NCBI GenBank assembly: GCA_916610825.1
Contig: OU744450.1
Location: forward strand, 744,001 to 808,000
Length of the DNA: 64,000 nt
Direction: 5' to 3'
DNA from: Haliclystus octoradiatus
Taxonomy: Eukaryota > Cnidaria > Staurozoa > Stauromedusae > Haliclystidae
Part shown: positions 5,081-59,909 of the stretch, piece after piece
How the letters are laid out: the number at the start of each line of letters is the position of its first letter
Numbering within the stretch: the first letter of the stretch is position 1
Position numbers and translations under genes: made by a program
The notes under the pieces: model-generated
Databases searched by the model: none
Told to the model about the DNA's origin: nothing
What the model saw: only the letters and a program-made list of their open reading frames with translations

Positions 5081-5244
5081 AAAATGAGGATGCCAGATAG
5101 GAATAGAAGTAAAACTGTTAGTTAGTATGAATGTTCTGAAAATGAGGATGCCAGATAGGAATAGAAGTAAAACTGTTAGTTAGTATGAATGTTCTGAAAA
5201 TGAGGATGCCAGATAGGAATAGAAGTAAAACTGTTAGTTAGTAT
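5071..5244 (+). repeat. 58-bp tandem repeat, 3 copies
   Basis: Three near-identical 58-bp units start at 5071, 5129 and 5187, each beginning GAATGTTCTGAAAATGAGGA. They abut the end of the RT fragment, and the first unit overlaps its edge. The near identity suggests recent expansion. Confidence 0.9.
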
Positions 5245-5287
5245 GATCATGGTATGATTGCTGTCGAAGCTCTACTATGGGGATTTT

Positions 5288-19873: not shown

Positions 19874-22800
19874 TTAAACACTGTCACTATCACTTTTATA
19901 TCTTTTTAGATCATCTAGCGCTGATTTATGGCTGTTCAATGATTTTTTATGATCTGGTGTTTGGTTACTGGCGTCTACTGTTGATCTGCTGAAGCTTCGA
20001 TCTCTTCTCCAATTGGCTGATATGACATCTGATCCGTTTGAATGGGCTAATCCACGATAGGATCGATAAGGCCTATTTGATGTCCTCAATAATAGATCGG
20101 ATGACCTCTGAATCCTTCTGTTAGAAATTAAAGGTACATTGAGACTGGTTTGTTGTTTTTTTAATCTCTTTAAGGCCCTCCTTGGTGCCCTGACCACGCC
20201 TTCTACTCTAACTGGCACCTCTTCATCTGTTGTGGAGCCACTTGTACTCTTTGGTAGAATTAGTCTCGGTAACTCACTTGCTTTGATATCATGAAGGGGA
20301 AGATCATAGCTGTTAATTCGTGTTTGCTTTGTTGGCGATGGTCTATTTCCTCTTCTGCGTCTCGCTTGCGGTTTCCTGCGTGAGGGACTGGCTTTTGTTT
20401 GGAATTCAACAGGCAACTTGGCCTTAACAGGGATAACTACTCTTTGTTTGTCTTCTTTGCGTCGTCTGTCAGATGAATCAAGTTGAATTATGAACTTATT
20501 AGGGTTAATATTTCGGCTGTGTGTTCGAGGTGATGAATATGGAGGAGGAGGAGAAATTGGAACAGCTGGAAGTCTTCTGGGTAGTACAGGCTGTGCTGTC
20601 TCAAAGAGAAAGGGAGCTTGTGGTTGTTGTGATGTTTCGAGGGGTGTTGATGTTTCAATGAGATCTCGAGAAAAGCCACGCCTATCGTTTTCATTGAGAT
20701 TGTGTTGTGTTGTTGACAAAGAGCTTCGTTTCACAGGGCTTAATACCTTTCTTTCCTTGGAATCAATAAAGCGTCTGGACTTGCTATGTTGTGGTTTTGT
20801 GAACCAAGCAGGCAGTGGTACATATAAATCAGGAGGTAGATACATTGAAGCGCCATGCGGCTGCATAATTGGCCCATCTGTTTGATAGCCTGATATTGGT
20901 ATAACAAAAGGCAATATATTCCCATCGCTATCAAACTTTGCAGGTTTAACTTCACCCACAATGCTCTGTTCTTTGAGAATCTTCTTAACGAAAGCGTCCT
21001 TTTTAGTCCTTGTTTCAAACGTTTTCTTACATCCATAATGGGCCAAGAAGCAAAATAATACGAGAAAAGCTGTCACTAGAAATGGTATTAAATAAAGTAA
21101 AAATTCTTGCCCAGGCCTCTCTTCATCAGTGCGAGCAACATCCACAGGAATTTCTACTAGGCTTGAATTACACCCTTGATTGTATTTTTGCCCCATGGCA
21201 ATAACGAAGTCCTCTCTGAAATTCGCCATAAATTTGACCTTTGGAGAGCCAAAGTCATCGAATGCAATCAAAACAAAATCTAGGACGTCTCGACGGTTAC
21301 ATGTAGAGTTAGAAATAGATGAATTTGCTATCTTCAAAAGTGTGTTTTCAATGTTTGAAGTAGGTTCAATAGAGAAATAACTAATAACGCTGCTAGAGTC
21401 ATTGTATGCCTTTGTCAAGTTTGTGTAAAATTCTCGTTGCAATCCTCTGTCATGATAAAAATCTTGGTATTTGACTTTAACGAGGAACTCAATGAGTATA
21501 CAGCATGAAATAGGACGATCTATATCAAGACTAAAGACATCAACAGCAGATCGACCACATGAGTCCAGCACCTCAAAATGAAGCTGTGCAACACTTTGAA
21601 TATAAGGCAGATTATCGTTAAGAATAAATACACTTAATTCATAAGTGACAATGTCAAAATAAATCCAAGATCTATTGTTGATCGTTCGAGGTGCATCAAT
21701 AGAAATAACTGCAGTGCCATTCAATAGACCATCTTCTTCGTCATAAAATGTGTTTGTTGGCAAACTAATTGTTGTGGGTTGACCAATCAAAGCAGTCAAT
21801 ACACCAAGGCTATCAATCACACGTGGCGGAGTGTTACCAAGGCAGCGATTTGATGTTGAAACGGAAACTGAAGTAGAGTATGAGCTGAAGGAAGAGAAAG
21901 CTGTACTGATAAACGGTGTCAGTTCCATTGTTATTGATGTCACAGAGGGATTAACGAGAGCTATATCAATGATAATACATCGCAGATCTGTCGTTTGATT
22001 ACTGGTAAAGTTGCCAAGCAGCAGGGAGACAGCACGTGAATCATATGAGTTGTTACAGATAATAAATTCAGCAACAATCAACTCCTCCGTCATCATCAAT
22101 GATGACACTGCAATAGGCTCAACAGGATTGCCAAGAAGTGTCTTTGTACGAATCAGCAAATCCTCCAATATTTGAAACTCACTTGCGTTTGAACCACAAG
22201 TAGCATTGAGTATTATCCTCAACAAACCAGTGCTAGATTGTGAATCACTAACAATGAATTGCAGTTCGGTAGTAGCATTTTCTCCCTGTGAGTCAAATGC
22301 AACTACGACCAAAGTGAAAAGGACTGGTTGAAATTCTGGGGCTAATGGGTATGCAATAATGGTTTGATTAACCAATGAGAGTATGATGCGTGGTGAGTTA
22401 CGTGCTGTTGATACAGATAGGGTAAGGTTTCTCGTGAATCCATCTTCTTCGTCATAAAATAGATCAGCCGGGATCGTGTAATTGAGTATAGAACAATAAG
22501 AAATGCCAAAGGTAGGAAATGGGTTGATTACTTTTGGAGCTGTATTCAATTTACAAGCATTCAACCTATCAATCTTGTGGGATATGATGCTAAAAGCCGA
22601 AGATATGGATGCAATCCAGTCTGAGAGGAGTAAGGCAGATTCATATCGGTCAACAGTATTATCATCACATGATGCCGATGATCCATAACATGAACCCCAT
22701 GATGCATTGACATAGGTGCTATCACGTGATATTTTAAAGCGAATCAGATTCAGTCTTGTCAATTTAAAGCCATTGAGATGAGTTTGTAAAAATGTATTAA

Positions 22801-25800
22801 CGCTGTTAGCAAGAATATTCTGACATGGAGCTTCAGAGATTTTAAAGGTAGCCTCATATTGGAATTGTGTTGACACTTGTTCTGATGTTTGTGTTATTAT
22901 ATGGATGTAGGCATCTGAACTCAGCTGGGATTGGTCAGTTGCTCTTAGAACCAAAACAAAAAGAGTATCATTAATTGGTTGAGCCTGTGTCAAAGCAATT
23001 GAATGCGTAGAAGGTTCGTAATGAAGAGGTGATGCACATGTGACTGGTGTATCGTTGATTGTAATGAGCTGTAAAGTTAAATTTCTGATGTCTCCATCCT
23101 CGTCTTGAAAGGTGTCAAAAGGGATAGCTATATCTTGATTTCTGCATTGTGATAACGTTGCTGTTATATTCCGCACAGCTGTAGGTGGCTTATTAATAGG
23201 TTTTTGGCAATTTCCCGTTCGCTTCACGGTAGCAGACAATAATGCTATTTGTGGGAAGAAAAATGAGACAAGCTGCTGGTTAATAGTCAGACTATTTGTT
23301 ACGATACGGTTCTCAATTTGCTCAGCAATTAATAAATCACAACCACTCCCAGATGATATTGTGCAGTTACTCCATTCTAGAAATATATTGATAGGGTTTG
23401 TGTTATTGACATGAAAGTGGTGGACCTGCACAGTTGCTAAGTTACTATCACCAAAGTATTGTGTTATTAAATCAATCATTCTTATCATTACCATCAGAGG
23501 CTTCACATTACCCAAGAAAAATGACACTGCTTCGAAATTAACTGTGAAGTTTCTACCCTGAATGAGACTAGGTAGCATGATACTGAGATTTGTCATGGCG
23601 GTGTTGTTAGATGAATCTGAAATGATGACGTCATATAGTAGCATATCTCTTCCTTCTAGTTGTCGTAAATCATCGTTTGTAATGCGAGCAACTAGTTGTA
23701 GCGTAACAGGATCAAAATTTATGACGTCATTATTATGGCCACTGGATACGACACTAACAGATAGATTCAACATGTTGCCATCTTCTTTATCAATAAATAA
23801 GTTGTTAGGAAGAGTGTAATTCAGAGTTTTACATAACGAAATCATGAGTACTGGCAATGAAGCATTCTGATAAGGAGGTTGGTCTATTGGGCGACATCTT
23901 TGTGGTTGAATAACTAAGAGGCTATTAATTTGAAACGGAGGCAGCATAGAATCTTTGAAGGCAACTGAACTAAATGTAGCATACAAACCATTGATTTCGT
24001 TTGGAGTGATGCAAGGTGTTGTTTCAGCCGAACAGTTTGTTAATGTGATGTCTAGTCCTTCTGGGAATTTGTTATCACGTGCAATGCCACCCACTCCAAA
24101 TCCAGCAAACCGAATTTGCAAAGACTGTAAAGCTAAATTGAATTTTTGTATGAACGAAACAAGTAATGAAACAGAGGATGTCGAAGGATAGTTATTACTC
24201 TGCACATGAAACTTGTAGGAATAGGAATCATTTGGGAAGGCATTCACTATTTTGATATTAAACGAGAACGAGGCAGATAGACCTTCTTTATCATAAGCTT
24301 GTATAACATAATTATAACCCATTGCAGGCTCATTTTCAAGTACTGAGTATTGTGCTATAGCTGTTAGTGTTTGAGTTGTGACATTAAATTGAACCCAGTT
24401 TGTTCTTTGGAGCAACTTATTACTTGCATCAAGAACATTAACAAATAAACTTCTCGTCGCTCCATCTTCATCATCAAGGAATGTATCACTTGGTATTTGG
24501 AAAGTTAATATCTCACATACGGAGACATTGAGTTGTGAAAAGATGTTTCTTATCCTCGGAGGTGTATTGATAGTAGAAGAACAATCACCTCGTTTGATTT
24601 CCTGTATCCTCGATATCGTGTAATTTAATCCAATTGAATCTCTTAAATCAGCCTTGATCTCACCAGATGTTGAATATAATTGCGAGCTAATACGAAGAAC
24701 GGATGACACAGGGCATTGTGGATATTGTGTCTCACAAAGTGAAATAGAGAAAGTCAATGAGTTTCCCGCCCTTGCAAATTGAGTGATTCTGATTGGTTCA
24801 TTGAAATATGATGTGAATACTGAGAACAACTGATTTCCTATACTCCAATCGGAAGAAGATGCTATCGTATCAGTGGTAGTCAATAAAAACCTGATCTCGT
24901 ACGAAGTATTGATTGAGACAAATGGTGGATAGACTGGATTGAGAGCAATAGTAGTTGACTGATCTTTGCTATCCGTGGCAGTGAGGTTGTAACTGTTATT
25001 GATGCCATTCCGCACTACAATGAGGCCTCGGATGGTATGATCAGTATTGTTTAACTTCAGCAATGAGCTTGTGTCCACATTCAGGTCTTCAACCTTCATC
25101 AAAGATAAATTCAGATCCCACGCCCCTCCATTTTCATCTTCAAATGTGTTATTTTCAATAACATACAATACAATCCCACATGTATTTGACAGGACAGTCA
25201 AAAGTGATGAAATAGGAAATGGATGTTGATCGACGCAGTTCCCGTAAATTTGGTCGCTGACTGATTGCACTACAAACTCAGGTAGGAGGAACAAGTCAAA
25301 AGGTATTGCGGATATTTTGTTGTTTGACTGTGATAAACTGTTACGTGGTATTATATGCTTTGAAGTTTGTTCCACGTGAGCAGGAGTACAGTTGTTTACT
25401 TGAAATGAACATAATCCGAATTGAACATTTTGGATGATAACATCACTGACATTTGATGATATAACCACAACCTCATTTTGACCAACAGAAAAGTAATCAG
25501 CCAATTTGCTATAGATTGCCCTTAGGACAAACGAAGGATCAGGAAGAAATGCAATATTTCGCATAGCGGTACATGTCACTATATATCCAGCATCGTACTG
25601 GCCTGTTTTAAATGTCACCGCTACTAAACTGACACTTGTTAAACCCTGTCTGTCCATTGCTGTTAGTGTACCTTGCAACAGTAAGATATTGTCTTCCTCC
25701 AATAAATTTAGGATGGGATAAATCATGATCACTTGATTTTGTTCATTAAAATAGAAAATTTCTTTAAAGTTGTCAAAATGGAGAGTTAGGTTCAAATTAC

Positions 25801-28800
25801 GTGTGTCTCCTTGTTCTTGATCGTAGAATGTATCTGCTGGGATAAGATATGACAATTCTGAGCTGCATATTGTGACGTTTAATGTAATATTTCTCAAGGT
25901 AATAGGAGCAGTGTTACTAGCCACGCTGCATTGACCTGCTGAAACACCACGGATGCTTCGTATGGTGAACTGAAGCTGTAAATAAGAGGTTAGGGACGTT
26001 GATGGTGAAGAGAAGGTTGTTGATTGGAATATTTTTGAAAGGACATCGTTGTCGGTACTAATGTTACATGTCTTTCCTCGAAATGCATTGATTGTCCAAT
26101 TTAAATTCAATTCACAATTAGGAGTGAGCGAAATACTGGCTGAGCAGATCAAAATGCGATCGACGTGCAAGTATGCTTTCATTAACTGTTCAAATTTTTC
26201 CAACACGGACACAAGGGTTGGACATTTTTTTGTTCTAAGTGACGTGATAAATATGAAATTATTTTCTTCCTCTATAATCGGATTCATGTTTATGATCAGT
26301 GTCACAGTGGCTGAGGCATTGCGACTGTCCGTTGCAACTAATCGAAGATTTTGCACACCATTTGGAAGAGAGTCACGGATTACCTGTGAGGGTAGGAAAC
26401 CAGCTAACCGTGATGGATTTACAACAAGTGAGATCCATGATGTTTTATCAATAGCCACATCATTATTATCCAGTAATAACAAGCTAAGTTTTTCTGTACC
26501 TCCATCTTCAGGGTCCGAAAAAAGATCTGGCGGGACATCCCATTGAAACCGCTCACATTCGGTTGCACTCAACGGTATGCTTGATTGTCTGGCAATAGGC
26601 TTTTGATTGCTGCTGTCCTTGCATTGAGGCGCCACAACCAGTGTCACTCTCCTCACAATGAAATTTGTTTGCATAAAAATTAAGAATGATGGGTCGACGA
26701 TTTCTTCTCCTGATCCAATCAGTCTCTCTTTCATATAATCCAGCAAGATATAATCACATGGAAACAGCCTCGCAGTTGTATTAGCAATTACGGCCTCTCT
26801 TCCAGTTCCACTTTGAATATATTTATCTAGTAAAACATTTTCACGCTGACTATCATTGAAGTAACTAGCCATTTCATTTATCAGCAAAATTTCTTCGTTA
26901 ACACAAGGTAATGCAGGGTCAACTGCATCCATTTCAATGACAAAACTAAAGCTGTATGACAAAGTTGTGATACTAAAATTCAAGTTCATATCTACCGATT
27001 GATTGACTCTATCCGTTGCTCTAATGAAGTATCTATATCCACCTGGTGTTGGTTGTTCGTCGAGAAGCTGTCTTGTAGGTACAACCGTTAGTTCTTGTGT
27101 GTCCTGTTTCCAATCAATAGTGCATGTGTTCTCAACATTTCTCCTTCCAATGTCAAGTAATTCAAGCTGCAATGCTCTTGTAAGACCATCTTCATTGTCA
27201 AAAAATGTTGCTTCTGGTATTGTGTATGTGATTATATTCGGCTGAGAAAATGTCAATCTAGGCAGCGGGTTGATGATCACTGGCGGTTGGTCTATTGGCT
27301 CAAGACAAACACCGAGGAGGGTTGTTTTAACAGTCAATATAAAGTATGAAGGTAGGAGTGAAGCAACATAGTTAGGATTTGGTTCTGTAGTGTCAAGATG
27401 GAGCTGACTCTGAATGCTTTTGATATCTTCTAATCGACAAAAAGTATCAGGTAAAGTGCAGACAGTGAATGAAACAACTAGCATTTCATCGACAACAGAG
27501 TAGCCTTGGAGACCCAACTGTGCCATGTCATCTAGATCAAGGTAGGAGAGAGTTGAATTCAATACATGATTTACATATTCGATTGTAGGTTGATTGAATA
27601 AACCAAACAAGCGGACTTCTAAGTCAATGATAAAATTAGGTCTATAGAATGAAGAAATACGATTTACTGTGAATGGAGCATCGACAGTTGCGCCTTGCTG
27701 ATCCTCTATATGTAAAATGAAAGATTCGAGAACCCCTGTTTGTGATTGTAGCAGAGGTACACGACCTAGAACAATCAGAGTGTCTGCATCGAAATTAATC
27801 CAAAATGTCTGTGGAACATCTGATTGGTTGCCAAAACGTAGAGATGTCTTTAGATTGGCTAAACCACCGTTCTCTACATCTGTGATGTCACTATCAAATA
27901 GTTGATAGACTAAAGGGGAACAATATGATATACTGAGAGGTGGTATGGGTCTGTTCACCATAGGGATGGTGTTACCTGCACATGGACCAACTTTCTGTAA
28001 TGTAGCTTCCAGAACATTGAACTCTGGAGCCATAATCTTCTGTAGTTCAGAACTAGGTGCATCATTAGTAAGCAGCACAGACGAAATTTTATTGATACCA
28101 TCAAGGTCACATGGTAATGATCGAATGGAGCAGTTGCTAAAGCGTATGGTAGAAGTGTCAAATCCACGTTCTACAGATTGTAACTTGATGCTTTCTTCGT
28201 AAGTGGCATTGTTGATCTGTGCTAAATTGTCAAAGAACTTCCGAACAAAGGATGCATCACAAGTGGTTTGAAGCTGTGTGCTATGGATAAGAAATATTAA
28301 TTGGAGTCCAATCTGAACTACAGAATCAATTATGTTCACTTCAAAGAAAGATATAGCGGAAAGTCCTTTCGAGTCTGCTGCTTTTAGGATATACACTTGC
28401 TTTGATGGAGCCATACTAGAAAGAGGCTGTCCAAATACGGATCTTGTTGATGGATTGAAGTTAAGCCACGAAGAACAAGGTAGGGGATCCCCTGATGCTT
28501 GCAACAATGAGAGAATCAGAAAACGTGCATCACCATCTTCTCTGTCGTAAAATGCATCAGAGGGAATCGTGTAGCGCAGTGATTGGCACACTGTAATGGT
28601 TAATGATATATTTCTTAGGCTGATAGGGTGACTGTTGGTGTCTGTGATAGCACTTGCAGATACAATGACTGGTTGGGATGAGGTGGATGCAATCATGATG
28701 CAATCGTCAGATAATTTCAAATCAATGGCAGTTAAGACATAATCTGGTGAAAAAACATTTGAAAATGCTGATGTCGGGTTACTACCATCTGATGATATTT

Positions 28801-31800
28801 TTTCAAATAAGGAATTAATTCCATTTGAAGGACATGGCTGAACCGATAATGTACAATTTGAATATGACATTGATATCGTGTTGGAAACGAAATCGATAGC
28901 AAATGACTGAATAATGACATGGTCAGTTGTAGAATCATCATGGAATGTTGCAATCTTATTGGCCAGTGAAATTTTATGATTGACAGGAAGAGATGCTTCA
29001 AGGCTGTCACTTGTAATACTAACTGTGATGTTATGATTATTAAAAGCTGTTGCATCAATGAGTTGGATAGTAAAGAAGGATGTAGCAGCATTTCCGTTGC
29101 TATCAGATGCTCTAATTGCAAAATTGTTCTGACCTGTTCCCTGCAGGATATAATCTTGTACACTTGGATAACCGAATATAATCTGAAATGTTTGTATAAA
29201 TTGGAGCCAGTATGTTTGGGGTATTGCTGTTAGATTTCCAAATAATAACTCCAGCTGCAAATTTCTTGTGTCTCCATCTTCAGGATCATAAAACGTATCT
29301 CTTGGAATCTGATGAAAATATGAACCACAAAGCGAAATATTTAACGTTTCTATTGGATTTGATATCCGAGGGGGTCTGTTGATTGGTCCGATTGAGCTAC
29401 TTGTAGTCAGAATTGAAGATGATGGAGGCGATACTGATGGTGAAAAAACTGAACTTGACGGAAAACAGGGAGACTTCAAATTCGTTTCTTCTGAAATTAG
29501 TGAGAACTCGCTAGGAAAAATGTTTTGGAATTCTGTTCTGGTTTGACCGAATTGATCTATGATAAGTTCGATTACTCTTTTGACGGATTGGAATGGACAC
29601 GTGCTATTGTTGCTACCAAAACAAGCAGTCCACGAGAGTTGTAATTGCCTTGTAACACGGTTTATGGTGTGAGACAAAAAGTAAATTGATTCAGTATTTC
29701 CAGGGAAAAGGAGATAATCACTTATTTTTGTTCGTATTGATATTAATAAATTAGTATCCAGTTGCTGTGAACCTGCTATAATAGAAAGGGTGATGTCTGA
29801 TTGGAAGTAAACGTATGGTACCATTTCATCTGATACATCCAATTGTAAAGGTGTTGATGCGGAACGACCAAATCTGTCCTTTGCAGTCACAATGTAGATG
29901 AAAGTGGTTGCTGTTCTAATCAGATCTTGTGTAATTGTACCAAATACAAGCTGCAAATTAGGAAGAAATTGAATCCATGATGTCTGTTCAACTGCAGTGC
30001 CATCAGAATAGGTTAGAGTCAGTGCGAGGTTTCTAGTTGATCCATCTGAATCAGAAAAGAATGTCTGATCGGGAATTTGAAACGACAATACTTTGCAAGG
30101 GGAAACCATAACAACATCTAATGGTTGAACCACTCTTGGACCCATGCTTCGAACTGATGAACTGACAGGAAAAACAGACGATGAAAATATGCTGGAAGGT
30201 ACATCAGTTGAGAAAGTCAATCCACATAAGCCAATGAACTGATGAGAGACTGAATCAAAGAAAAATTCAGGAAAGAATATACTCTGAAAGGCAATATTCA
30301 CTGTTCCCTCTGGGCTTAATATCTTGGATAGAATCTCTGATGTGACCTTTTCACGTCTACATTCAGAAAGATAAGAACAATTCGTCCAGGTCATACTAAG
30401 CTTTCTTGCAAGGTTGTCCTGTTGGAATGATAATATTGCCAATTGACCAAAGCTGCTGTGTCCATAAAATTGAGACAGTTTTGTTGCTAAGGATATCTGT
30501 GAATGAACTTCTGGTAACGTGGAGTCAAGGTTAGATATGACGTCGACAGTAACCGAAAATGTTGGTGGTGGAGGGCTAAGTGGCAATTCGAATATAACAA
30601 CAACTGAAATTGATTGTCCTCTGCTATTTGTTGCAATTAATCGACATTGATAGCCACCTGCTGGTTGTAATTGCGAATCTGTGTACTTTGGGTAACCATA
30701 AAACTGCTGAATATCTGGATAAAATTGAAGCCAAGACAAAGATGATAATTTTGTTCCTGATAAATCAACAACTGTCAAGGTTAATGATCTTGTTCCGCCA
30801 TCGATATCATCATAAAAAGTATCATCTGGCACGTTGTATGTCACCCGAGAGCATAGATCAGCATTGATAAGAGGTATTGTATTGACAACACGTATGGTAA
30901 CATAAGGGGAAGGATAGATGATGGTTGATGTTGGTAGCGTTGTTTGTGTAGTTGCATCTATACATTGAGGATCAATCGTCTCATTGGCATCAAATATGAA
31001 ATATTGAGGTTTAAGATAATTCACGAAGTTCAAGTTCAATGTGCCATTTTGATAAACAACAGAGTTGGGAAGCTTTGTTGCATTACATTGCTCAGCTTCA
31101 AAGACACAGCTGCGGTATTCTAAGTGGGATATTCTGTTTGGCTGACGATTGAATGACGTCACAAGAAGATTAGTAGCATCGTTGTATCCATAGAATCGTG
31201 AAACCTTTGTAAGCAAAGTAAAAAGTTCATTAAATTGGTTTTCTTGATCATTGAATAGCTGATTGACTCTGATGCTTATCACATAGCCAATAAACAGTGG
31301 CATTTTGGGTAGTAAGATATTCATTCGTGTACTGACTTCAAGTCCATTCGAATTAGTTGCTGTGACAATGTATGTGATTACACCTAGGTTGTATTTCTCC
31401 AAGACACCAACAGTGAGTATTCCATAGAATGATTGGAGCTCAGGATTGAATTGAAGCCATGCTTCCCTCCCTAGCAACGCTCCTTGCAACGATGTGACTC
31501 TTAATTTCAGAAAACGAGTAGACCCATCAATACTATCGTAAAATATTTCTGCTGGTATTCGATATGTGAAGAGCAAACAAAGGTCTGCAGTGATGTTAGG
31601 AAAAGGGTTTGCTACGATAGGACCAGTGTTAGTTGCCACTGACGTCATGATCACTGGAAGGGTAATCACAGACGATGGCTGAATACTGAAGCTACTAAAT
31701 ATCGGGAAACGACTTGGGAAAGTTAAACTGTTTACAGGTTTGAGTATTGATGTACTGACGACTGTTGATTGTAAACTAAAAGTGGATGATATTTGCATAG

Positions 31801-46000: not shown

Positions 46001-49000
46001 GATTGGTTCTTTATTTGATGTCAATAATTTTAAATCAAGATTCCTTGTACCCCCGTCTTGTGTATCAAAGAAAGAGTTCTCTGGAACCGAAAACGATGCA
46101 TTTGTGCATAGTGTTATATTAACCTCAATTGGTTCTTTGCGAGACTTTGGCAACAGAATTTCTTCTTCTGGATTGCATAGTGGATTATTAACTTCTTTGA
46201 CCGATGATATCGATGCATCTATTGTATTGAATGTGTCGCTTAACCCAGGTTGTACGTCACCGTTTGGTAATAGTAATTTGTCTTTAATCGCAACCTGTAG
46301 CGAATAGCTACAATTCTTATAAAAACGACTACAGTCTGTCCAGGATATGTTCAAACAAGTATTATCATTTTTATAAGAAACTAACTTAACTGCCGATATG
46401 TTTGGTTTCAAGTAACTTTCAATCGCATCAAGTATTTTATAGAGGGCCGTTGAGTCGAGTAACGTTTTATTTTTGAGACATACTTTTGTTTCTATTAGAT
46501 AATAATCATCTTCAAAAGTGGTTACTTCATTATTCAGATTAACTCCTAGGTCAGTCTCTGCCATTTGCCCGCATCTATCAGTAGCTGTTACCTTTGATAT
46601 ATAGCGTCCATTTTGTGGTGATCGAATTTGCGGTACAGCATAGAGCCTCTTTGATTGATAATTAATCCAAGAAGAAGTTGGATACAGATCTCCTTGTTGA
46701 TCTGTTAACGTTACTGTCATCTTACTAGTATCCCCATCCTCTTTGTCATAAAATGTCTCATCGGGTATACTCGTCATTATCCTTTGACATCTATTCAAAT
46801 TATAATCTTTCAGAATTGTAAGTACGATGGGTGCTTCATCAATCTCAAACACTTCTTCTAAATTCACAGATTTCACTTCGAGTGTTGGTGATGTTTGCTC
46901 CGTGAATGCTTGACTTGGGTGACCAGATTGTGTAACTAATCGCTGAGTAGACAATCGTAATTTCTCAACTGAAGATTCACATTCTCTTTGTTTGATAGAG
47001 CAATTCCCTATTTTCATATAATAAATCCCGTTGAATGAGTCTTCACTGAAAGTCAACACTCTGTAATCATCCAAAGACGAATCACCCACAAATTGTGATA
47101 AACGTGTCAGAAATTGTATTTGCAAGTCAAGGTATGCCGTACTATCTGTATTACTGCTATGAAACGTAAAGGATAGTCGATAGAAAGATATTTTATCGGC
47201 TTCAACAAAAACACGGAGTTGGCTGACAGAGCTTCTGCCAATATTATCTGTCACTCGGATTTGATAGAGTCTACCATCTTCTACTTCAGCTTTGATGATT
47301 GCTTCGGTAGGAAATGCATAAATCTCCCGCTGGAGGCTGTCTAATAGAATCCATGAATCCTTTTCCAACATTTGATCATTGCTGTTTCTTAACTCAATTT
47401 TGAAATCATTCGATTGCTCGTTATTGATAAAGTCATCAGGTAATTTATATTTGAATCGTCCACAGACATTAACAGTGATATTTAATTGCTCATAATTGAG
47501 TATTGGTTTTTCATTTCCACATGAATCAGCACCAGAAGATATCTGAAGTCCACTTGGAAGATTATTATTTATTTCTGTGATTGTAAGATCCCCTTGTTGG
47601 CCAAGAAGATTAGCACTCAGTTCCTTGTAGCTTGTATCTGTACAATTGGATATATTACAAAGCTTGAAAGAGAGTTCAAATGTAAATGGTGTTCCGCCAT
47701 TTCTTTTTATAGATAAGAATTGCACATCTTCTCTATTTGATACTTGATTGATTGCTTGGTAAATTAATTCAAAGTAATACGCATCGGGTAGCTCATTTGA
47801 TAAGCGACTTTCTCCTTTCATTGTAAATGTGACACCTTCTTTAATTTCCCCAGTAAAGTTAAACGCCAGATTTACACGAAAAACCTGTTGATTGGTGTCG
47901 GTCATTGACACCTGAACCATGTAAGATAACAGCGGTTGGTCAGGGATATTGTACATTGATTCCAATGGGTGTAAAACAACAGCAAACGCTGTTTCATTAT
48001 ACCACAAGGGTGAATCAACAGGGATAACATTGCCATTCTCAGGTGTGACGCTGACAGTAAATTGTGGATCTGTAAGTGTAGGACCAAGTAATGTTAGAAA
48101 GTCAAAATAAAACCGCTCGCATGGAAGAGGGTTCACAATAAATATGTTACTCTGTGGTAGAACTATTTCATCTTCGCATTTTACTTGTTCACTTACGAAT
48201 CCTCGAATTAATGATGGGATAAAATTAAATTCTGGTTGTAAATAAGTGGCTAATTCTGGATTATTGACAGCAGCCATTAGTTGTAAGGTTGCTGTGGCAC
48301 CACACACATCGCAATTACCAATAGTTATAGACATCGACGTATCAGATATCAAAGGATTCAAACCAATATAAAGTCTATTTTCTTTGTTACCACTAAATTC
48401 AGTCAATTTCCTTGTTAATACTAACATTACAGTAGTTACAAACTTGTAGCTAAAGGCAATTCCACCTGTAAAAGATGCATACCGTGGTGCAGGCTTGTAT
48501 TCGTTGCCTTTCATCGTTAATGTAAGCACTGATGTGGCTGACGAACCATCTGAATCAGTTGCTTTGATTATATACTTATAACCATCTTTTGGTTGTAGAT
48601 TATACGACAGTGCTTCTGGCAAACCACTCAACGTCTGCGTTGTTTGATCAAATACAACCCAAGTATCTGTTGGTAACGGATTGTTCTCTGAAGTAAAAAT
48701 CTCCAGTGACAATTTTCTTGTGTTACCATCTTCGTCATCTGCAAATAGGTCTTCAGGTATGACATAATTGAATTCCCCACAATTGGGAAGTTCGATCATA
48801 GGCACTGGTTTGTTCACACGAGGAGGACTAGGGGGTAGTTCAGAACAACTGCTGTTCACAACACTTGATTGAAATTGGAAATAGGCTGAAAAGTTTTCAG
48901 TGAATAATGATTTAGGGACAGATAGTAGCCCAGTTGATTGAGATCTTGAGAACATCTTTGAAAGGAAAGTAGCAACTTCATTGTTATATTTGCTTCGCGG

Positions 49001-52000
49001 TCCAGTGGTATAACTTGTGATAAGAGAGCATGCGCTGAAGGTGATTGAGAAAGGAGCTGGGAACTTTGATGCATCTCTGTTATAATCCAATACCGTGTAA
49101 TATGACGTACTTGTTTGCAAGGCCTTATTCATTGCATCTAATAGTTCTTTCAGTACATAAAAATCAGATAAGAATGGACTGAGGCTAACGCTCCACTTCA
49201 AAGTAACAGAACAGAGGCTAGACGATTTTGTTTCCATTAAATCAGGATAAGTGATATCAAGTGTTGAGCTTGAACTTTCCCCTGAGATTGGATGAGTGGC
49301 AATTAATTTATATTTAAGAACATCAGAAGTCATTTTATAAGCAGCTGGAAAGACAGAGAGGGTTTGTTTGGTTGACTCAAACGAAACATATTGCGGGATT
49401 TCTTGTGTCTCAGACCGCAATTGGATATAGAAATCTTGTGATATCTTTCCAGTTCCATCAGTGAAAGCTGTTGGCGGTACAACAAATAATGACATGCCAC
49501 ACATTGGTTGATTTGGAACCGTGATAATTGTTGTGATAATTGTGACTGTGTTACGGTCACCACATTGCTTATCATTCAAATATACATATGTCGGAAGCAG
49601 TAAACGTTGCATGGCAGATTGTAGAAAATCATTAGGTGTTGACCGGTAACGGTCACGTTGGAATTTAGATGACATGGCTGCAACAGTACCATCGTTGCAT
49701 GGTAACTGACAAAAATAAAACGACATGCTATTTCTTCTGTTGAAATCCTTTACAAAGATACCTTCGTCATTTTCATTTCTAGTGTATGATACTAGCGCAT
49801 TGGTGATGTTCCATAAATAGGCAGCATTGTTCATTTCTAGTTGATCAATGAACGGATTGAAACCGAGAATGAACTCCGTTGAAAAGAGGCTTGATGATGA
49901 TACTATCATTACAATGAATGTAATGTTCGTCGAACGGCCAGATTTATCGGTTGCTGTGATTGAATATCGGTAGCCCTCTGTCGGTGCAGACATTAGTGTC
50001 TGATTTGTAGGCATACCGTAGATGGTTTGGGTATTTTTGTTGAAAGTCAGCCATTCACCCGGCATTAGATTATTTCCATTTTCATAACTTAGACTCAATG
50101 TCATTGATCTCGTGTTACCGTCTTGATCGTCTTTAAATGCCTCTTCTGGTACCCTATAGTCAAGACCCCTGCATATAGGGGCATATTCTGTGAGGGTGCT
50201 TACCCTCTTTTCAGGTGGTTTTTCGATGCAAACATAACTCACAATGACTGTTTCTAAAGAGAAAAGTCTTTCCAGATGATCTTTAAATTCTTGTCTTATT
50301 TCTTCGTTGTCAGTAATTAGCTTTGAAAATATCGCTTTCACTCTTGCAGTATCTTCTATGTCTAAGCCTCTCTCCATACTTATTTTGCTTTCAAATCTCA
50401 ATGAACAAGAAGTCCATTTGATTTCGTATTCGAATTCATTCTTACGATTAAAACTGATGATCTTTATGCCTCCTAAACTGTTCTCGTAATAACTTTGAAT
50501 TAATTTCTTCAGCTCTCTTAACACATACACATCTAAAATAAAATTGTCGCCATATTTCCGTTTAACAACCATTGTTACAGGGCAGTTAGCAATGTATGGT
50601 TGAGTGGATCCTGTGGTTGAAAATTTCGTAGTCATCGTCTTTCCTGAACTTCCTGTTGCTTTAATTTCAAATTGTTGTTCGCTTGAGTATGCTGCAGATC
50701 CAATACCAAACAATTGTAGCGAGGCAGCGTCTAATTGGAGCCAGCTTGATGATGCCACAGCAGTGTTTTCATTTGCCATGAGCTGCAGCTCTAAGGCTCG
50801 AATGTCACCAACACCTGCTTCAACAAAGAGTGATTCTGGCAATTTATAAGTGTAATCAGTACACATTGGTATTTCCAATGTAGGGATTGTAACAGGATTC
50901 ACAGGAGGCTCCGTTGGTGCATTACATGCTTGAGACTTAAATACCCAACCGGTTAATGTGAATGTTGGCTGGAATGCTGTCTCGTAACCATATACTAGCA
51001 TACCATTGATTTGTCTTGTCTGCCTCATTTTCTGGTAAATAAGAGAACTGCATGATTGCGTACTGCACGTTGTCCATCTGATAGAGGCTGATTGCGGTGA
51101 TGTAAAATGACGTTGGAATGACATCATTCTGATGTCTTTTTTGTCAAGAGTAAAATAATCAGAGATGTTTGATGCTAGTTGCCCAGCTAATTCTGAATAG
51201 GGTGTCTCTCGTTGTATATGATAATTAAAATGCATTTCAAAATTGAAAAGTGGATTATCTAGAGTCTGTTCAGTTGTGATTCGGATTGTCAAAGGGATTA
51301 AAGCACTGAGCCCTGCTGTGTCAATACCTTTTAAATTAAAACGATAGGATGTTTTGAGAGGAGAGATTCTTTGTTCTGATAAAGGTGTTGCTGATATTTT
51401 GTAATTAAATGCATTATAATTCACCCATGATGAAATACTGACATCTTTGCTGTTTTCATCAGTGACAGTGATTTTTAGATCTTTTGTATTTCCATCTTCA
51501 AAATCATAAAATAAATCATCAGAAACAATGAATGACTCGCTGCCACAGAATGGCATATTGATACGAAGGGATGGGTTTGCGGGATCAGGCGTTGGTGGTA
51601 AATTCAAGCACTGTCCTTCAAACTGTGCCTTGACGTTTGAGATTGTATATGATGTACCAAAGCTGGAGACAAATTCTGATCTGACTGTTTGAGATTTGCT
51701 TTGAAAGACTCTGCGCAAAACCTTTGAAACAAAATTCTGACTTTTCAATGTCATTGTTGATTGCGAGGATTGGATAAACGTTGATCCGCAAACACTCCAA
51801 ATGAATCGGAATTTAAAATCTGATAATCTGTTTAAACTAACTACTGATAAATCGGATCTAGTAAGTCCAAGAAAAGAAGAAATGGTCTCCAAAAAAAGTT
51901 TTGTGAGAGCAAAATTGCTTCGCTGATTTATTGATGTTGATGATGTCACATCTATACTAATACCACAATCAATAGCAACTTGCCATGGTCCAATCAAATT

Positions 52001-55000
52001 CATTGCGAAGCTATCACGAGCTGACAACTGGGTAGTGTCCGTTGCGACAACATTGAATTGGTATTGAGCTGATGATTTCATTGCTTCAGCTGTTGCTATC
52101 GCGTGTAATGTTTGTTTGGCTGTATCTAGATATATCCAGCTATTCATTGAGATCAGAGAACCAGCCTCGGTTTCAAGGGTTAATTGTAGGTTTCTTGTGT
52201 TTCCTTGTTCAGCATCATAGAAACTACCAGCTGGAATGGTGTAAGCAAAGTCAGAGCACAATGGAAGAGGGAAGTCTTGGATGGGATCTACAACCTCCGG
52301 TGGAGTGGAAATGACACCACTGCAGTCACTATCAGGTTGAACATAAACATATTGAATATTAAAACGAGGTGACAATGCAGTTTGGAATTCATGCGTAACA
52401 ACGTTAGCTGATGTAATAAACAAATCACGAATCATATTCAGTTTACGTACATCACATGGTGTGTAGGACACAGAGCAATTGGCAAACGTGAGTGTTCTAC
52501 GTCCATTGGTGTCTTTCTGGTAGCTAAGTAATCCAAACGAGGCAGTGCTTTCCTGGTTCAAATAAAATGTCAATGATTTTGCAAATTCTTTGATTTCTAG
52601 CACAGCATTCATGGTTGGATACTGGCTTTCATAGCTCACAGCATAGAAATATTTTGGTCTTTCATTCATTTGAAAGCGTATTTTCAACACCATGTCTGCT
52701 TTAAGGCCACTGCTATCTGTTGCTGTAAGAGTAAAAAGATTTTGACCAGTGGCCTCATCACGTGATACAGCAATACTGATTGTCTGCTTAGATTGGTCAT
52801 AATGGATCCAAGACGGTAAGTGAAGACTGCTAGATGATGTAAGGGTGACGTCAAGGTCTTTCGTCGTTCCGTCTTCAGTGTCTAAAAACAGATCCTGGGG
52901 AAGTATCATTGTTGAAACCCCACATTGATTTATCAGTAAGTCCCAAGTAGGGGACTTTGGAACCGGGGCATTTAGAGGGCCCTCACATTGTTCAGCTATA
53001 AAAAGTGTGGCATTGTCAAGGCGGTAAAATGGTTGGAAGATCCGAGCAAAAGTATCAACCAATTGGTCATTACGCTTGACTGTTCTGAAAAACACTCTTC
53101 CTTCGTTTCCACCGCATGTGTTTGCAAGATTTGCGGGTGACCATGTGATTAACAATGATGTCGCTGTTGCACCATAAGTGATGATGTTTGTAATATTAGA
53201 TGAATAAAATGAATTAATAGCTGATACTATAAACCGTTGAGTGAGTAATGTATTGATGTTGCCAGACACTAAAGACATTCCCAATCTAATCGAATAGAAC
53301 ACCTGGGGTGTTTCACCAATGATAACCAATCTTGCGTTCGCCTCTGTCCATAAACCATTGGTATCTGTTGCTCTTATGGTTAAATCATAGTAGCTACCAG
53401 CTATTGTTCGCTGCCTCGCAGCATCATACGTCACCACACCACTTAATCGTGTAGATTGTATCATTTGTATCCAGGAGACTGTGTTTGTTATTCCAACGCC
53501 ATTTATACTGGTAAGAGAATATGCAAGAGATGTGCCATCTTCTTCGTCTCTGAATGAAGACTTTGGAATTGTGTATTGGAATGTTGTGCAAACATATGCA
53601 TATATGGGCCCTATAGGGTCTGCTGGAGTGGGCGTAGTATTAGGTTGACCACAAGGTCCAGCCAAAAAGTCTGAAGTGGCAACAAGTCTGATATCCGGAC
53701 TTAAAGCTTCTAACAGTTTTGCTTCAAGGGATAATTTACTTTTAGTTGCAGATTTAATCGATCTTATAGCACTGAAATCACAAGGATCATAAGATAAGCG
53801 ACAACTTGTTATTTTCACGCCATAAAAAGAAGACTCATGAGTGACGATTTCAATAATTCTGAGATTATTCTGCTGTGAATGTGTTGAGTTGCCATAGTAG
53901 TACTCGTCCAAGGTCTTTAGTAGATAACTATAGATCACAGAATGTTCTTCAGCGTTATTATTTTCCCATGTAAACGAATAAGTTATTGAATAACTGAAAT
54001 TCGTTGGTACAAACATTGTTGTTGATATGTTAACGTTGGTACTACTAGTCAAGCCCCGTTTTGATGTTGCTGTTAATATGAAAACCTCCAAATCAGAAAT
54101 CTCACTTTCGTGAATCATTTTATCTGTCAGCACAGCAATCAGCTGCCTCGTTCTGGAATCGAAATGTACCCAATGAGATTCAGTAATAGCTACTCCTCTT
54201 GAGTCCAATAATGATAATGATAAATGTGACGCATCTCCATCAATCTTATCTTCAAATGTTCCTGATTCAATCGTATAATTCAAATAACCGCATGACGGCA
54301 TTCTGAGAAGAGGTGGAGCAGATACAAGAGAAGGCGGGGTCAATGCATCTTTACAGTTACCATCGTAAACCAATTCAATCGATGTCACTACTCCAATCAT
54401 AGCTAAAGCATTTGCTAATAGCTGATTTGCGGATTTACCAGTGCTGATTAATTTACTTTCAAATGAAGCAAGGGTAGCTGTATCACATTCATCGCTAAGT
54501 AATAACGAATTTCTCCAATTAATTGTTACTACAAACCCGGAAGTTGATGTCACTTGCATAAATTCAATGGCTAGAGATGTAATGCTGTAGCGTAAATAAG
54601 ACAAAAGACTATTTCTTACTGAAGAAAGTATGTCAACCTCGTTGCCAGTGAAGAATCTAGACAATCTCATTATCATAATCACGTGGTGATTGGTTGCTAA
54701 CGGACGATCTCGTACTGATACACTTATAGACTGTTGAGCTGATAGTTGTTTGATGTCCGATGCACGAACAGTGAGGGTCGTTGATGATAAACCAGTTACT
54801 GTAGCAACAATATCAATTCTCCTTAACGCAGTGTTGTATTGTATAAAGAGCCCTCGAGTGAAAACTATAGGAATAATACATTGGAGATTCAAGTTGTATG
54901 CTCCTCCCTGTTCAACATCAAAAAACGAATTGTCTAATATGATATATCTGAAAGTAGAACGGGGGTCAGTTAACAGGTTTCCAATTGCTTCTTTGAATAC

Positions 55001-58000
55001 AGGTGGATTATTAACGCTACATTCTCCAAAGTATTCACTTGAAAGTTCAATGTTACTAAATGATGATGACAGCGTATTTATAAACCCATCTTGCCAGCTA
55101 GATCCAGACCCAATTTTACGTTCCATGAAATCGAGGTTATAGACATTACATGGATCAGCTCCAATTGAACAATTAGAGAACCTCAAAGTATATATTCCAT
55201 TTACAATATCTGATCTATCTGAAGTTGATTGAAATAAATCAATTGCAGTGTTAAGATACGACGATACAGTCATGCCTAAATCGAGTAAAGTCTGACGAAA
55301 GGGATTCGGTACTAATGGAGTAGCAGTGACAATAACATTGAATCCCGGTGGGTTGTATTTTCCTTTAATTCGAATGAAAATATTGCTTGATGCTGTATTT
55401 GAGGTTTTATCCTTGGCATTTAGTATAAACAACAACACTGTATCGGCTACTAACGATGCGTCTTCTGCTGTGAGTAAACAATAAATTGTTTGTTTGTCAA
55501 CATCAAGCCAAATCCATGGCTCCGTAATTGTATTTCCTTCTCGATTTACAAGTGATAAACTTAGGCTTCTTGTATTCCCATCTTCAGCATCCTGGAATGT
55601 ATTTTCTGGAACCTGATATTGTAGAAATCCACAGAAGCCAACCTCCAAGTTGATGCTACGGATGTTAACGGAAGGGGGCTGTCTTCCACATGGCCCGGAA
55701 AAGCTTTCTGTCGCACTGCTAACTTTTATGTACTCATTTTGAGCAGTTAGTTCTGAGGATAAACCACCTGTTAACGAATCAAAGATGACTGATTGAAACA
55801 AGGAGATCAGTTCCTGGCTACACCCTTCTTCTGGCATACCACAAGGGCTGATGACTAAACTTAGATCGTCATCGGTTTGACTCGCAGCCTCGCTTAACTG
55901 CCTCATATAAATTGATTTATAAAATTCATTTCCACCAATCATTGTTTTAAGTTGATTAAATATAATATTTTGTTTCTCTGCCATAAATAATGAAGTTTCT
56001 TTTAATAATTGTATTTTCATTGTGATATTGTAATGTCGAGCAGCCATCTTGGATTGAAATTGATATATTGGTGCTTGGGCCATCGTTTTACCGCCAAGAG
56101 AATCTTCCATAGTTGTTTCCATGGTGATTTTATTATTTGAATTAACCATAGAAAATATTTGATCATTTGGTATTATAGTAAATGTTTGTGCTTCAATATC
56201 ATAACTAATAGGAGAAGTATGATCTAGTGAACCAAAGGAAGGGTTGAGAAAAGCAGATATCACTTTTATATTCCTAGCGTTGCCTTCTTCTTCATCTGTC
56301 ACAAAGTCTTCTGGTATTTGATAAATGAAAGGTTGACAGTTAGGAACTATAGTTGGATTTATCATATAGTTGAAATTGAATTCTGGGTTTGTATTGTCAA
56401 TATTGGCACATATGCCTACGCCTTGTTCTTTAAAAGATGAAGGTGACATTTCAGGTTGAAAATGTTCTTTGATTGCATCAGTTGGCTCGCTTTGACCAAG
56501 ACCAAGTGTTAGTCTTCGTATAATCTTAACCATTCCTGCTACATCACACGGAGAATATGTCAATGACGTATTAGACCATGTGATCCTGAACTTCCCTCTT
56601 ATTATTACTTGAAATGAATGAACTCGCAATGAATTAATGTCTGTGCTAGGAAAATATGAGATTAATTTATGTAATAGAATATTTGTCATTGAAGGTCTTG
56701 ATAGTGTTTGATTGCTTGCTTCTAACGATCCCTTTATTTCATAACTTGAATTTTTAGTTGATTGAACACAAGTAATGAAGAATATATCATCGACATACTG
56801 TCCACTTGACTTTGACATCACACGTAGCGTAAAGGAGTTTCTTGAACCAATTGCAATATCATTTACGTATGGTATAATGAATAGAGTATTATCAACTAGA
56901 TCTACCCATTGCAGTCTTCGATCAACATTGTTTAATAATTGGTACGTCATTGAATCAATTTCGCTAGTGATAGAATAATATGAAGGGAGAATTTGATATT
57001 TCATCAATGTTCCACTGACAACGCGAAGTGATCCAATTGGTCGTTTAATCAAAGGCCGATCACATGATCCTGATAGCGTTACACTTAAGCTAGGTGAGTC
57101 AATTTGTAGAGATGCCGCCAAAAGAGATTGAAATTGTTGATTAATTGTTCCATCTTCGTTGATCATTTTACCTGACATGTCGCTCAACTGACTTGCACCG
57201 CATGGATTGACATTAGCGATACCATCAAATGTAAACGCTATGTAAGAACCGGACACATCTGATGATACTAACTCCTCAATTAAAACCCGTGATGAATCAA
57301 TTCCAAGGTACTGGCTAACAACTGATACAAAAGAACTTGCAAAGTCAAATGTAGACATACGAAAGGCTCTCGATTGTGAAATACGAGCCTTATAGCCAGC
57401 ATTAAGCGTACCAGCGCTAGCCATTTCAAGTGTAAACGAATGAAAGGCAAATGATCCAGTACTACCGAAACCATATAGAGTAAACGCAAATGTAGTTTGT
57501 TGTGTGGGTGAAGCGACACCTACGATTGATGGACTTTCACTCAGGAATGATTTGGACAGCGATATCCAATCATATTGACTGTTCAAAGGGGTGCCATCCC
57601 CCAGTCTCAATTCTAATCTCACCGTTGATGATGGGGCGTTTTGAGGCATAGTAAATGCTGTTCCTGGAATTGCAGTATCGAACACTTTACCGATATCAAC
57701 AATGATGCTTGAAGGAAAAGCTCCTTTGATCGGCACAAATTGCTGGAAAAACGAGCACTCTTGATTTGAAACTGTCGAGTACGAAGAGAGGCGAAATGTA
57801 GACGGCAGCAAAGGGTTGCCAGCTATATTCACAGGATTTAATCGTGTTTGAAGTAAAACAAAATCGTCTACGATGCATGAAGTACCAGCCAGTGACTTAA
57901 TTGTGAATGTCAAATCGAATGTTAGTAGGCCTTCAAGCCTTTCCAAAGTGGTTTTCTCAATTATGAACTCTCTGTAATGACGATTAATTGATTTACTAAT

Positions 58001-59909
58001 ACTAGTAAGTAGCATCAACACAATTTGCGCATGTGCAATTGTATAATAATCAACCACATTATCTGATTTATACGTAAATAATAAAAGCTGATTAGCAGAT
58101 GGTGGCGCTTGGTTAATTTTAATGTGTAACACTTGCTGAATAATGTTTCCTCTTGAATTTGTAGCAGATAAATGATATTCGTAACCTCCAGCTTTTTGGT
58201 TGTCATAAACATCTTTTGTCACATAACCAACAATACGTAATTCATCTTCTATTAAATATATCCATTGGTATCTACCAACTGCTGTATCTGTCTGTGTTAA
58301 TAATTCTAATTTTAACTCATCCCCATAGCCATCAATATCATCGTAAAATGCTTCTTTAGGAATGGTGTAATTTAGAACATAAACATCCGTTAAGAAGATC
58401 GTTGGTAGATGATATCGAATTTGCAGACCACCAGAAGTAGATGTGGTTCCACTAAAAAAATAAAACATTTTAACATTGAATACAAGTGTGTATGTGTATG
58501 TAGGTACCTTTATTTATTCAGACAGGATTAATCTCTCTCAGCAAAAATGCACCATGTAAATTACTGCTATCAATAAATGCCCTGAAACTAAACATTTATA
58601 ACTTACAATAATAATGTATAAATAAAAATAGTAACTGACTATAGAATATGTACAATTGAATTTAAAAATATCAACTTTAATGATTGACGAATAATCTGAA
58701 ACTATTTAACTAGTGATACTATTAAAAACATTACAGTCATGAGAAAAGAAGCCTTCTTCCTTGGTTCTAATTTCGATTCTAATAGAAATAGAAATGAGTC
58801 AGAGACAGCTTCAGTAGAGTTATCGGTTCAGAAAGTCTAGAGCAGGTAAAAATTCGAATGACCAATTTACCATTACAATAAGATATAGGCATGGATTGCT
58901 TTAAGACTTACTTTACCAGCAGGTCTCTTGCGGTCATGGCTATATCAATTACAATTATTAAAGGAATTGGATACCTGTCAACAAATTATTTTAAATATCG
59001 AAAGAAGGGACACGCAAATGAGTTGCTAAAGTTCGTCTTCGCCTTCTTCAAGGTATCACTAAACAATTATAAACAATTAAAAAAGTCTTACTTGATTGTG
59101 ATGTGTACTGATTCATCATGGCCGACGTAACCGGAGATGACGTACCATCCAACTATCGTGTTCCCTAATATGGTACTCATTTTTCCATTGTTGACGTCGG
59201 TCTTTATACTTTGAATAACATCTGAGTTTGCTTGTAACGTCCCGCATGACACAAACCAATTGACAAGAGTGCTCTGTGCTAAGATCCCACCACTTGTATC
59301 TCCGACACCTGACGCAATGACACTGCCATTGAACAAGTCGGTAAAGAATCCAATCCCTTGACCTTGGCTTACACTGACGTTAGATAACAGAATGCCAGCG
59401 TATGAGGCAATTGCAGACTTCAGAGTGGAAATTTGATTTTCTGATAAATTAGGATATGATGTGTCTAATATAACAGTTGATTGAGATACCGGAAGTGTTG
59501 ATTGACAAACGTAAGATGCACTCGAATCCAAAATGGAACGTTTTTCTCTTTTTTGTAATACAGTGATGATGTATCTAAATAGTTGTTGTTGTTGGCCTTC
59601 ATTCTCAACAAGGTCGTATACATGAACCCCATGACTGTTGATTGGTGCAAAACCAGATAAACGTTCGCCATCTTCTGACTGTCTGATCCATTGGATGTTT
59701 TCACCAGTGTTGACATTAATCAATCTATAATCAGATTTAATCTTCACATCCAATTTGATATTAAGTTGTTCACCCTCTTTCACGTAAAAGCTTTCAGTTT
59801 TGATATCACCCACAGTTTTTGTTTCATGACGACAAATTATACATTGTATTTGATAATAGAAGATTATCAAGAGAACATATTTGAAAAAAACGATTTTAAA
59901 ATTCAACAT
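43007..59909 (-). CDS. Giant dystroglycan-like type I membrane protein B (about 5,420 residues, 20-21 modules)
   Basis: Exon 1 (59909-59092) encodes a signal peptide and one diverged CADG plus SEA-like unit with a furin-type site (REKR|S) between them. The donor GTAAGA and acceptor TTTTTTTAG join in phase 2 to exon 2 (58451-43007, 15.4 kb). Exon 2 holds about 20 modules at a steady spacing near 682 bp (about 227 residues). Clear examples are IPEDLFADDEDGNTRKLSL and VPENTFQDAEDGNTRSLSL; several (units 2, 3, 12, 14, 16) have lost the acidic motif. The SEA-like halves keep NCS/NCT and paired cysteines. A membrane span (44705-44770) leads to ten cysteines in 25 residues, then a tail of about 550 residues rich in Arg, Ser and Asn with 11-residue repeats. 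No PPxY is seen. It is a tandem paralogue of A on the same strand. Confidence 0.9.
43268..43402 (-). repeat. Four 11-residue repeats in the tail of protein B
   Basis: Repeats of the form GFS(S/N)RN(R/H)S plus three residues, at 33-bp spacing, in an Arg/Ser-rich region (RSRSASRG upstream). The spacing keeps frame. The repeats may be phosphorylation or binding units; unknown. Confidence 0.7.
44705..44770 (-). other. Transmembrane segment of protein B with Cys-rich juxtamembrane patch
   Basis: WWVLILLLVLAILFLLLW is followed by CCWLC, CCPGIC, CC and CC in quick order (ten cysteines, to about 44637). Cysteines just inside a membrane are common palmitoylation sites; this is inferred. Confidence 0.85.
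58452..59091 (-). other. Single intron of giant gene B
   Basis: GTAAGA donor at 59091 and polypyrimidine plus TAG acceptor ending at 58452 (640 bp). Joining gives an open frame of 5,421 codons including stop. The apparent Met upstream of exon 2 (58468) lies in the intron and is not a start. Confidence 0.85.
59538..59549 (-). other. Furin-type cleavage site in protein B
   Basis: Codons for REKR followed by Ser fit R-x-K-R. The site lies between the first CADG-like and the first SEA-like domain. Vertebrate alpha-dystroglycan is also cut by furin after its N-terminal domain (established), at an RVRR-type site. Confidence 0.6.

Follow-up and report, generated by a model that had tools for sequence, protein, structure and literature searches.

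Giant dystroglycan paralogues with 20 to 26 tandem IG2-SEA modules in the staurozoan Haliclystus octoradiatus

A 64,000-nucleotide stretch of the Haliclystus octoradiatus genome (contig OU744450.1, positions 744,001 to 808,000; hereafter the window) carries two neighbouring minus-strand genes, P1 and P2, that encode giant membrane proteins made largely of tandem repeats, and a third gene of this type, P3, lies next to them just outside the window. Judged by its sequence and its modelled fold, the repeated unit is the membrane-side module of dystroglycan, in which a CADG-like domain (IG2) is followed by an SEA/maturation domain (IG2_MAT_NU), and the correspondence is one to one over the whole unit. 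On balance, and with some reserve, we favour the reading that P1 and P2, with the adjacent P3, encode giant dystroglycan paralogues that would form mostly uncut, stapled rods for long-reach adhesion.

Identity of the repeated module

The genome searched comprises 261,861,806 bases in 33 contigs; the window corresponds to positions 744001-808000 of contig C6 (27,810,455 bases), and the canonical dystroglycan paralogue lies on contig C4 (35,873,919 bases). A profile grown by iteration from one unit recovers 26 units in P1, 20 in P2, 20 in P3 and 1 in the canonical protein, within the 26-27 and 20-21 units that a first-pass annotation of the window had counted in P1 and P2. In these two proteins the worst unit scores E = 2.5e-27, and unit starts are spaced 195-304 residues apart.

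The assignment of the unit to the dystroglycan CADG/SEA pair, also proposed by that annotation, is borne out by the sequence and by the predicted fold of one unit. A hidden Markov model search for CADG and dystroglycan domains matched Pfam DAG1 in P1, in two overlapping pieces (E = 1.8e-48 and 1.7e-24), and in exon 2 of P2 (E = 9.7e-23), which also matched He_PIG (E = 7.8e-19). When the predicted fold was submitted to Foldseek, dystroglycan (E = 6.4e-21) ranked ahead of the best cadherin-type chain (E = 7.7e-8), this and weaker matches being to the membrane-adjacent (MAD) regions of cadherin-23 and protocadherin-15, chains that we take to consist of cadherin repeats with an SEA-like end. Cadherin-23 and protocadherin-15 each have one SEA-like end domain. 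The IG part of the units gave weak matches to PDB cadherins only, and the VIA-align rows ranked below the dystroglycans, which cover almost the IG part alone, were left unused. Two other families, the alpha/epsilon sarcoglycans and the cadherins, were rejected, as no Pfam entry of either was listed to E = 0.1 for P1 and P2.

Across the genome, the Pfam DAG1 search returned seven matches, five in P1, one in P3 and one in the canonical gene. A search with the sixth unit of P1 (P1_06) gave at least 50 matches; among the matches listed, the cluster accounts for 48, and the other two lie in the canonical gene (C4:8230756) and at C4:1517699. The last locus (L028:3507-5723), a frame of 739 residues, is a short dystroglycan-like paralogue that comprises one IG-SEA unit, a membrane span and a tail of 439 residues lacking PPxY.

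The open frames lie where they had been annotated, with 6,918 codons for P1, 5,153 codons for P2 and a 273-codon first exon, all on the minus strand. The giant size reported for the products (7,021 and 5,420 residues) stands, but the exact lengths become 7,008 and 5,402 in our models, whose splice sites are predictions made without RNA. Both members of the annotated pair are present, but the genes are a linked trio: P3 begins about 5.5 kb from P2 in head-to-head orientation, with a signal-like stretch immediately before its unit 1 and, in the splice model, an intron interrupting its unit 8. Exon 1 of P1 is situated between the two giant exons. By hydropathy, a module adjoins the membrane in every case, each protein having a single strong span beyond its last unit and weaker peaks (1.75-1.83) within the arrays and at the N-terminus; by this measure, a signal-peptide-like start and the annotated single span and long tail are present in both P1 and P2.

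Cut site, cysteine pattern and age of the arrays

The G-S dipeptide at the alpha/beta cleavage place is found in one array unit (P2_02) and is absent from the other 65 of 66, including the membrane-nearest unit of all three genes; P3_04 has G-T instead, and the relevant columns of P1_01 and P1_09 were placed by eye where the script could not. The canonical paralogue reads RGSVIFAW at this site and has a mucin-like block. Because G-S is missing from nearly every unit, the match of the unit motifs to the alpha/beta junction, as first annotated, holds for structure and fails for a functional cut site, and for lack of this maturation site we file the giants as family paralogues rather than as canonical alpha/beta dystroglycan.

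Two cysteines absent from the canonical unit recur in the arrays. The first is in IG2 (alignment column 6; 47 of 66 units), the second on the SEA strand that follows the former cut site (column 164; likewise 47). They covary: 45 units have both, 17 have neither and 4 have a single one, and in two of these four (P2_16 and P3_16) an IG2 cysteine is seen by eye just upstream of the alignment start. Most simply, the pair would form a disulfide that staples IG2 to SEA. Units 1 and 2 of P1, units 1-3 of P2 and P3 and the final unit of each of the three genes lack the pair, as do three other P1 units, one other P2 unit and two other P3 units. Among 200,000 shuffles, the same first-two-plus-last score was reached 1,540 times for P1, 1,809 times for P2, 11 times for P1 and P2 jointly and never for all three, in a test that was chosen after the pattern had been seen and in which P3 is not independent of P2. 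A cysteine at column 83 is common to the last units of the three genes and three other units.

Other cysteines are more widespread, at column 171 (58 of 66 units) and at the end of the unit (64 of 66). In units 10, 12 and 14 of P2 and P3 there is no cysteine at column 171 but one at column 104, and P1_25 and P3_13 lack both. P2_10, P2_12 and P2_14 (window 49604-52267, including the units between), with this relocated cysteine, group in the tree, and so do those of the same numbers in P3; these alternating units perhaps represent a second disulfide type.

Within each gene, units average 17-20% identity, which rules out recent amplification. Same-number units of P2 and P3 have a mean identity of 26.5% compared with 18.4% when shuffled, the maximum of 10,000 shuffles being 22.0, and for 14 of the 20 numbers (1, 3, 4, 8-14, 16, 17, 19 and 20) the tree joins them as sisters on a starred branch. 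The tree, which comprises 68 units, has 16 of 65 inner branches starred and an unsettled bootstrap, and was used for the P2/P3 pairs only; the program warned that P3_04 with P2_04 and P3_02 with P2_02 are possibly long-branch joins. An array of about 20 units therefore predates the P2/P3 split, and the largely kept order shows the array as a whole to be under long-standing constraint. An order common to P1 and either P2 or P3 was also sought, and no clear diagonal signal emerged (offsets -3 to 11, 17.6-20.0%).

Heads, tails and a possible function

The products had been described as built of the module pair alone, which does not hold: P2 also has the S6 domain (Pfam a_DG1_N2, E = 1.9e-10; PDB 1u2c, E = 2.9e-4), P1 has at least an IG1-like start, and IG1 was recognised by eye in both. 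The one coding intron that all dystroglycan genes are reported to conserve lies within IG1, at human residues 95/96, and is followed by a large 3' exon (PMC5216574). By our own count on chain 9c3c_A, the human intron falls between K and V ahead of an SWLHW stretch. The P1 exon 1/exon 2 junction (41686-41513 / 40726) reads NVK followed by IDSARDTSINWLQH, which sets the predicted intron between K and I, in agreement with the human position to within a one-residue gap. In the canonical paralogue (G000:C4:8228425-8230200), the first exon of which was not located, S6 is interrupted by an intron, and P2 has none at that place; an S6-internal intron is also reported for Hydra and Nematostella dystroglycan (PMC5216574). 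For P3, tblastn found no match to an upstream IG1-S6 exon to E = 1 in the 5.9 kb upstream, and no N-terminal head was found.

The tails also differ. That of P1 contains one PPxY motif, and the C-terminus of the canonical paralogue is SPPPYNN. The P2 and P3 tails are 33.9% identical over their first 115 columns (E = 1.6e-15) and are cysteine-rich there. The genome encodes four matches to EF-hand_2, presumably the type of domain present in dystrophin and dystrobrevin. A link to dystrophin is plausible for P1 only.

In the mechanism that we propose, each giant is a single chain anchored in the membrane, with 20-26 dystroglycan IG2+SEA modules lined up outside the cell. The site at which the SEA domain of ordinary dystroglycan makes its self-cut into alpha and beta is gone from almost all modules, and most modules have acquired an IG2 cysteine and an SEA-strand cysteine just beyond that site, nearly always together. 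With a disulfide stapling IG2 to SEA, the result would be a mostly uncut rod, its N-terminal head (IG1-S6 in P2, at least IG1 in P1) kept far from the cell surface. If each IG and each SEA domain measures about 4 nm, the rods would span at most ~200 nm (26 units) or 160 nm (20 units). Inside the cell, P1 would connect through its PPxY, possibly by binding dystrophin, and P2 and P3 through their different, cysteine-rich and basic tail. The likely job would be long-reach adhesion of cell to mesoglea or of cell to cell, which is plausible.

Several observations weigh against this reading. The giant receptors are known here from genomic sequence alone, and the staple is read from cysteine covariation. 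P2_02, with its G-S, and perhaps P3_04, with its G-T, may remain cleavable. P2/P3 colinearity is imperfect, the same-number P3 unit being the best match for 13 of 20 P2 units and P2_06 pairing in the tree with P3_05. S6 could not be demonstrated in P1 (model predicted local distance difference test score (pLDDT) 30.6; hhalign probability 0.3%), the IG1-like region of P2 has no intron in the splice model, and the tails of P2 and P3 contain no PPxY.

A more specific form of this reading is one that we hold tentatively, at rather less than even confidence. Here the self-cleaving junction would have been swapped, module by module, for a disulfide between IG2 and the post-cut strand, the outermost and membrane-nearest units would have been left unstapled as flexible or force-sensitive ends, and the three linked genes would encode covalent cables with different inner connectors.

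Among the alternatives, the arrays could be extensible force buffers or sensors, in which load would unfold SEA domains or lay open protease sites, so that the chain acts as a spring or a sheddable tether and not as a stiff rod. Such behaviour has a precedent in chimeric receptors, where the dystroglycan cadherin-like and SEA pair acts as a conformational proteolytic switch (PMC6586460), and unstapled units do occur at both array ends and in a few inner places. However, the putative cysteine pair is apparently present in 47 of 66 units (45 counted by column and a further two, P2_16 and P3_16, seen by eye) and would resist unfolding at the interface, and we regard this alternative as unlikely. 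A surface coat resembling a glycocalyx, serving spacing or protection rather than adhesion, would suit the 96 N-glycosylation sequons of the P1 main frame (tail included) and the Ser/Thr/Pro-rich linkers inside the P1 array. These linkers are, however, few and short in P1 and absent from P2 and P3 at the threshold used (50% over 40 residues), no such block precedes unit 1 in P1 or P2, and the S6 retained in P2 argues for a ligand-binding head; a coat function thus seems improbable. We hold it slightly more doubtful still that the giants are recognition receptors for self/non-self or cell-type matching, whose divergent modules provide binding diversity: three linked paralogues with units as divergent as these would fit, but P2 and P3 keep their unit number, mostly the same order and a conserved cysteine pattern, as expected of an old constrained structure and not of rapid turnover. 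Finally, although the genes were read from genomic DNA, we give almost no credence to pseudogenes or an assembly artefact, considering (i) that the 6,918- and 5,153-codon frames run without an internal stop, whereas the five other P1 frames contain 310-590 and the two other P2 sense frames 335 and 486, (ii) that the 224 kb around the cluster contain no N, and (iii) that the low-identity arrays of P2 and P3 are colinear and have conserved cysteine patterns.

Relation to known dystroglycans and genomic surroundings

The giants share with vertebrate DAG1 and the canonical paralogue the IG2+SEA module end to end and the single membrane span, together with the predicted IG1 intron position (P1), S6 (P2) and the tail PPxY (P1). 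They differ in having 26 (P1) or 20 (P2) modules instead of one, in lacking G-S from 65 of 66 units, in the extra cysteine pair and in having no long mucin block before the array; the tail of the canonical paralogue has 108 residues compared with 388 in P1 and 570 in P2.

Tandem modules as such are known. Nematostella vectensis dystroglycan has six IG2_MAT_NU modules in which the maturation site is not conserved, nematode dystroglycans likewise lack this site, and two-module forms occur in arthropods, Saccoglossus and Trichoplax (Adams and Brancaccio 2015, PMC4582122). The likeness to Nematostella is in the tandem modules and the unconserved site, and the difference is that Nematostella has one gene with six modules and H. 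octoradiatus three clustered genes with 26, 20 and 20; the arthropod, Saccoglossus and Trichoplax proteins resemble the giants in their duplicated module and differ in scale. The first-pass annotation knew of no system of this size made of the module pair; the published two- and six-module forms contradict this as regards kind, and the scale is new, no report of more than six modules having been found in the open-access literature searched. Greater distance and rigidity have been suggested for multi-module dystroglycans such as that of Nematostella (Adams and Brancaccio, PMC4582122). The giants are a real and large extension of these tandem-module dystroglycans, new in scale and with a testable structural twist.

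Table 1. Features of the giant genes and of the canonical paralogue. Positions are those of the window unless a contig is given.
Feature	Position	Strand	Basis
P1 exon 1, 58 aa, with a start like a signal peptide and the N-terminal half of an IG1-like domain	41513..41686	-	splice model, GT donor; hydropathy
P1 exon 2, remaining IG1, 26 IG-SEA units, membrane span and 388-residue tail, 20.9-kb coding exon	19874..40726	-	open reading frame; AG acceptor
P1 array, 26 IG2+SEA units	21206..39949	-	iterated profile
P1 membrane span	21041..21103	-	hydropathy 2.71 over 19 residues
P1 tail PPxY motif SPPPPYSSP, candidate WW/dystrophin-binding site	20537..20548	-	sequence motif
P2 exon 1, S6 preceded by a signal-peptide-like start and an intron-free IG1-like region (recognised by eye)	59146..59909	-	Pfam, PDB, splice model
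P2 S6 domain (alpha-dystroglycan N-terminal domain 2)	59146..59507	-	Pfam a_DG1_N2
P2 exon 2, 20 IG-SEA units, membrane span and 570-residue tail	43007..58451	-	open reading frame; predicted acceptor
P2 array, 20 IG2+SEA units, mostly colinear with P3 array	44852..58390	-	iterated profile, unit comparison, tree
P2 membrane span, then cysteine-rich juxtamembrane stretch common to P3	44720..44770	-	hydropathy, tail alignment
P3, third giant gene of the dystroglycan type, with 20 units in a predicted 5,133 aa	G000:C6:809398-825747, outside window	+	profile and splice model
Canonical dystroglycan paralogue of H. octoradiatus	frame G000:C4:8230060-8231763 and upstream S6 exon inside 8228425-8229030		

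Elsewhere in the window, positions 11501-14961 hold a non-long-terminal-repeat retrotransposon with endonuclease and reverse transcriptase, in which DIELNPGP near the N-terminus is 2A-peptide-like by eye; it is directly preceded by a 130-bp tandem unit (4.2 copies, 99% match) that resembles monomeric promoters. A minus-strand gene at 200-1604 encodes a bZIP domain (bZIP_2, E = 3.9e-8) with two overlapping downstream frames and by eye is XBP1-like with an IRE1-type frame switch; a clear intron motif was looked for there, and none was found. A reverse transcriptase fragment on the minus strand at 4623-5117 (RVT_1, E = 3e-6, slightly below the curated cut-off) is overlapped by a perfect threefold 58-bp tandem repeat at 5071-5246. 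Outside the window, two similar gamma-glutamyltranspeptidase stretches about 5 kb apart on the minus strand, L008:7626-8219 (by Pfam) and G000:C6:697109-697777 (by eye, first 60 letters), are probably a local duplication.

Dystroglycan ties muscle cells to the surrounding matrix, and in muscular dystrophies the connection that it makes from there to the dystrophin cytoskeleton fails. Until now, at most six tandem copies of the membrane-side module had been known, and here there are 20-26 in each of three linked genes. From the covarying cysteines, a specific disulfide is predicted at the alpha/beta interface, and one recombinant unit would suffice to test it. Standing beside an ordinary dystroglycan in the same genome, the giants may serve as a natural experiment on what the uncleaved module can provide, be it reach, stiffness or force buffering.

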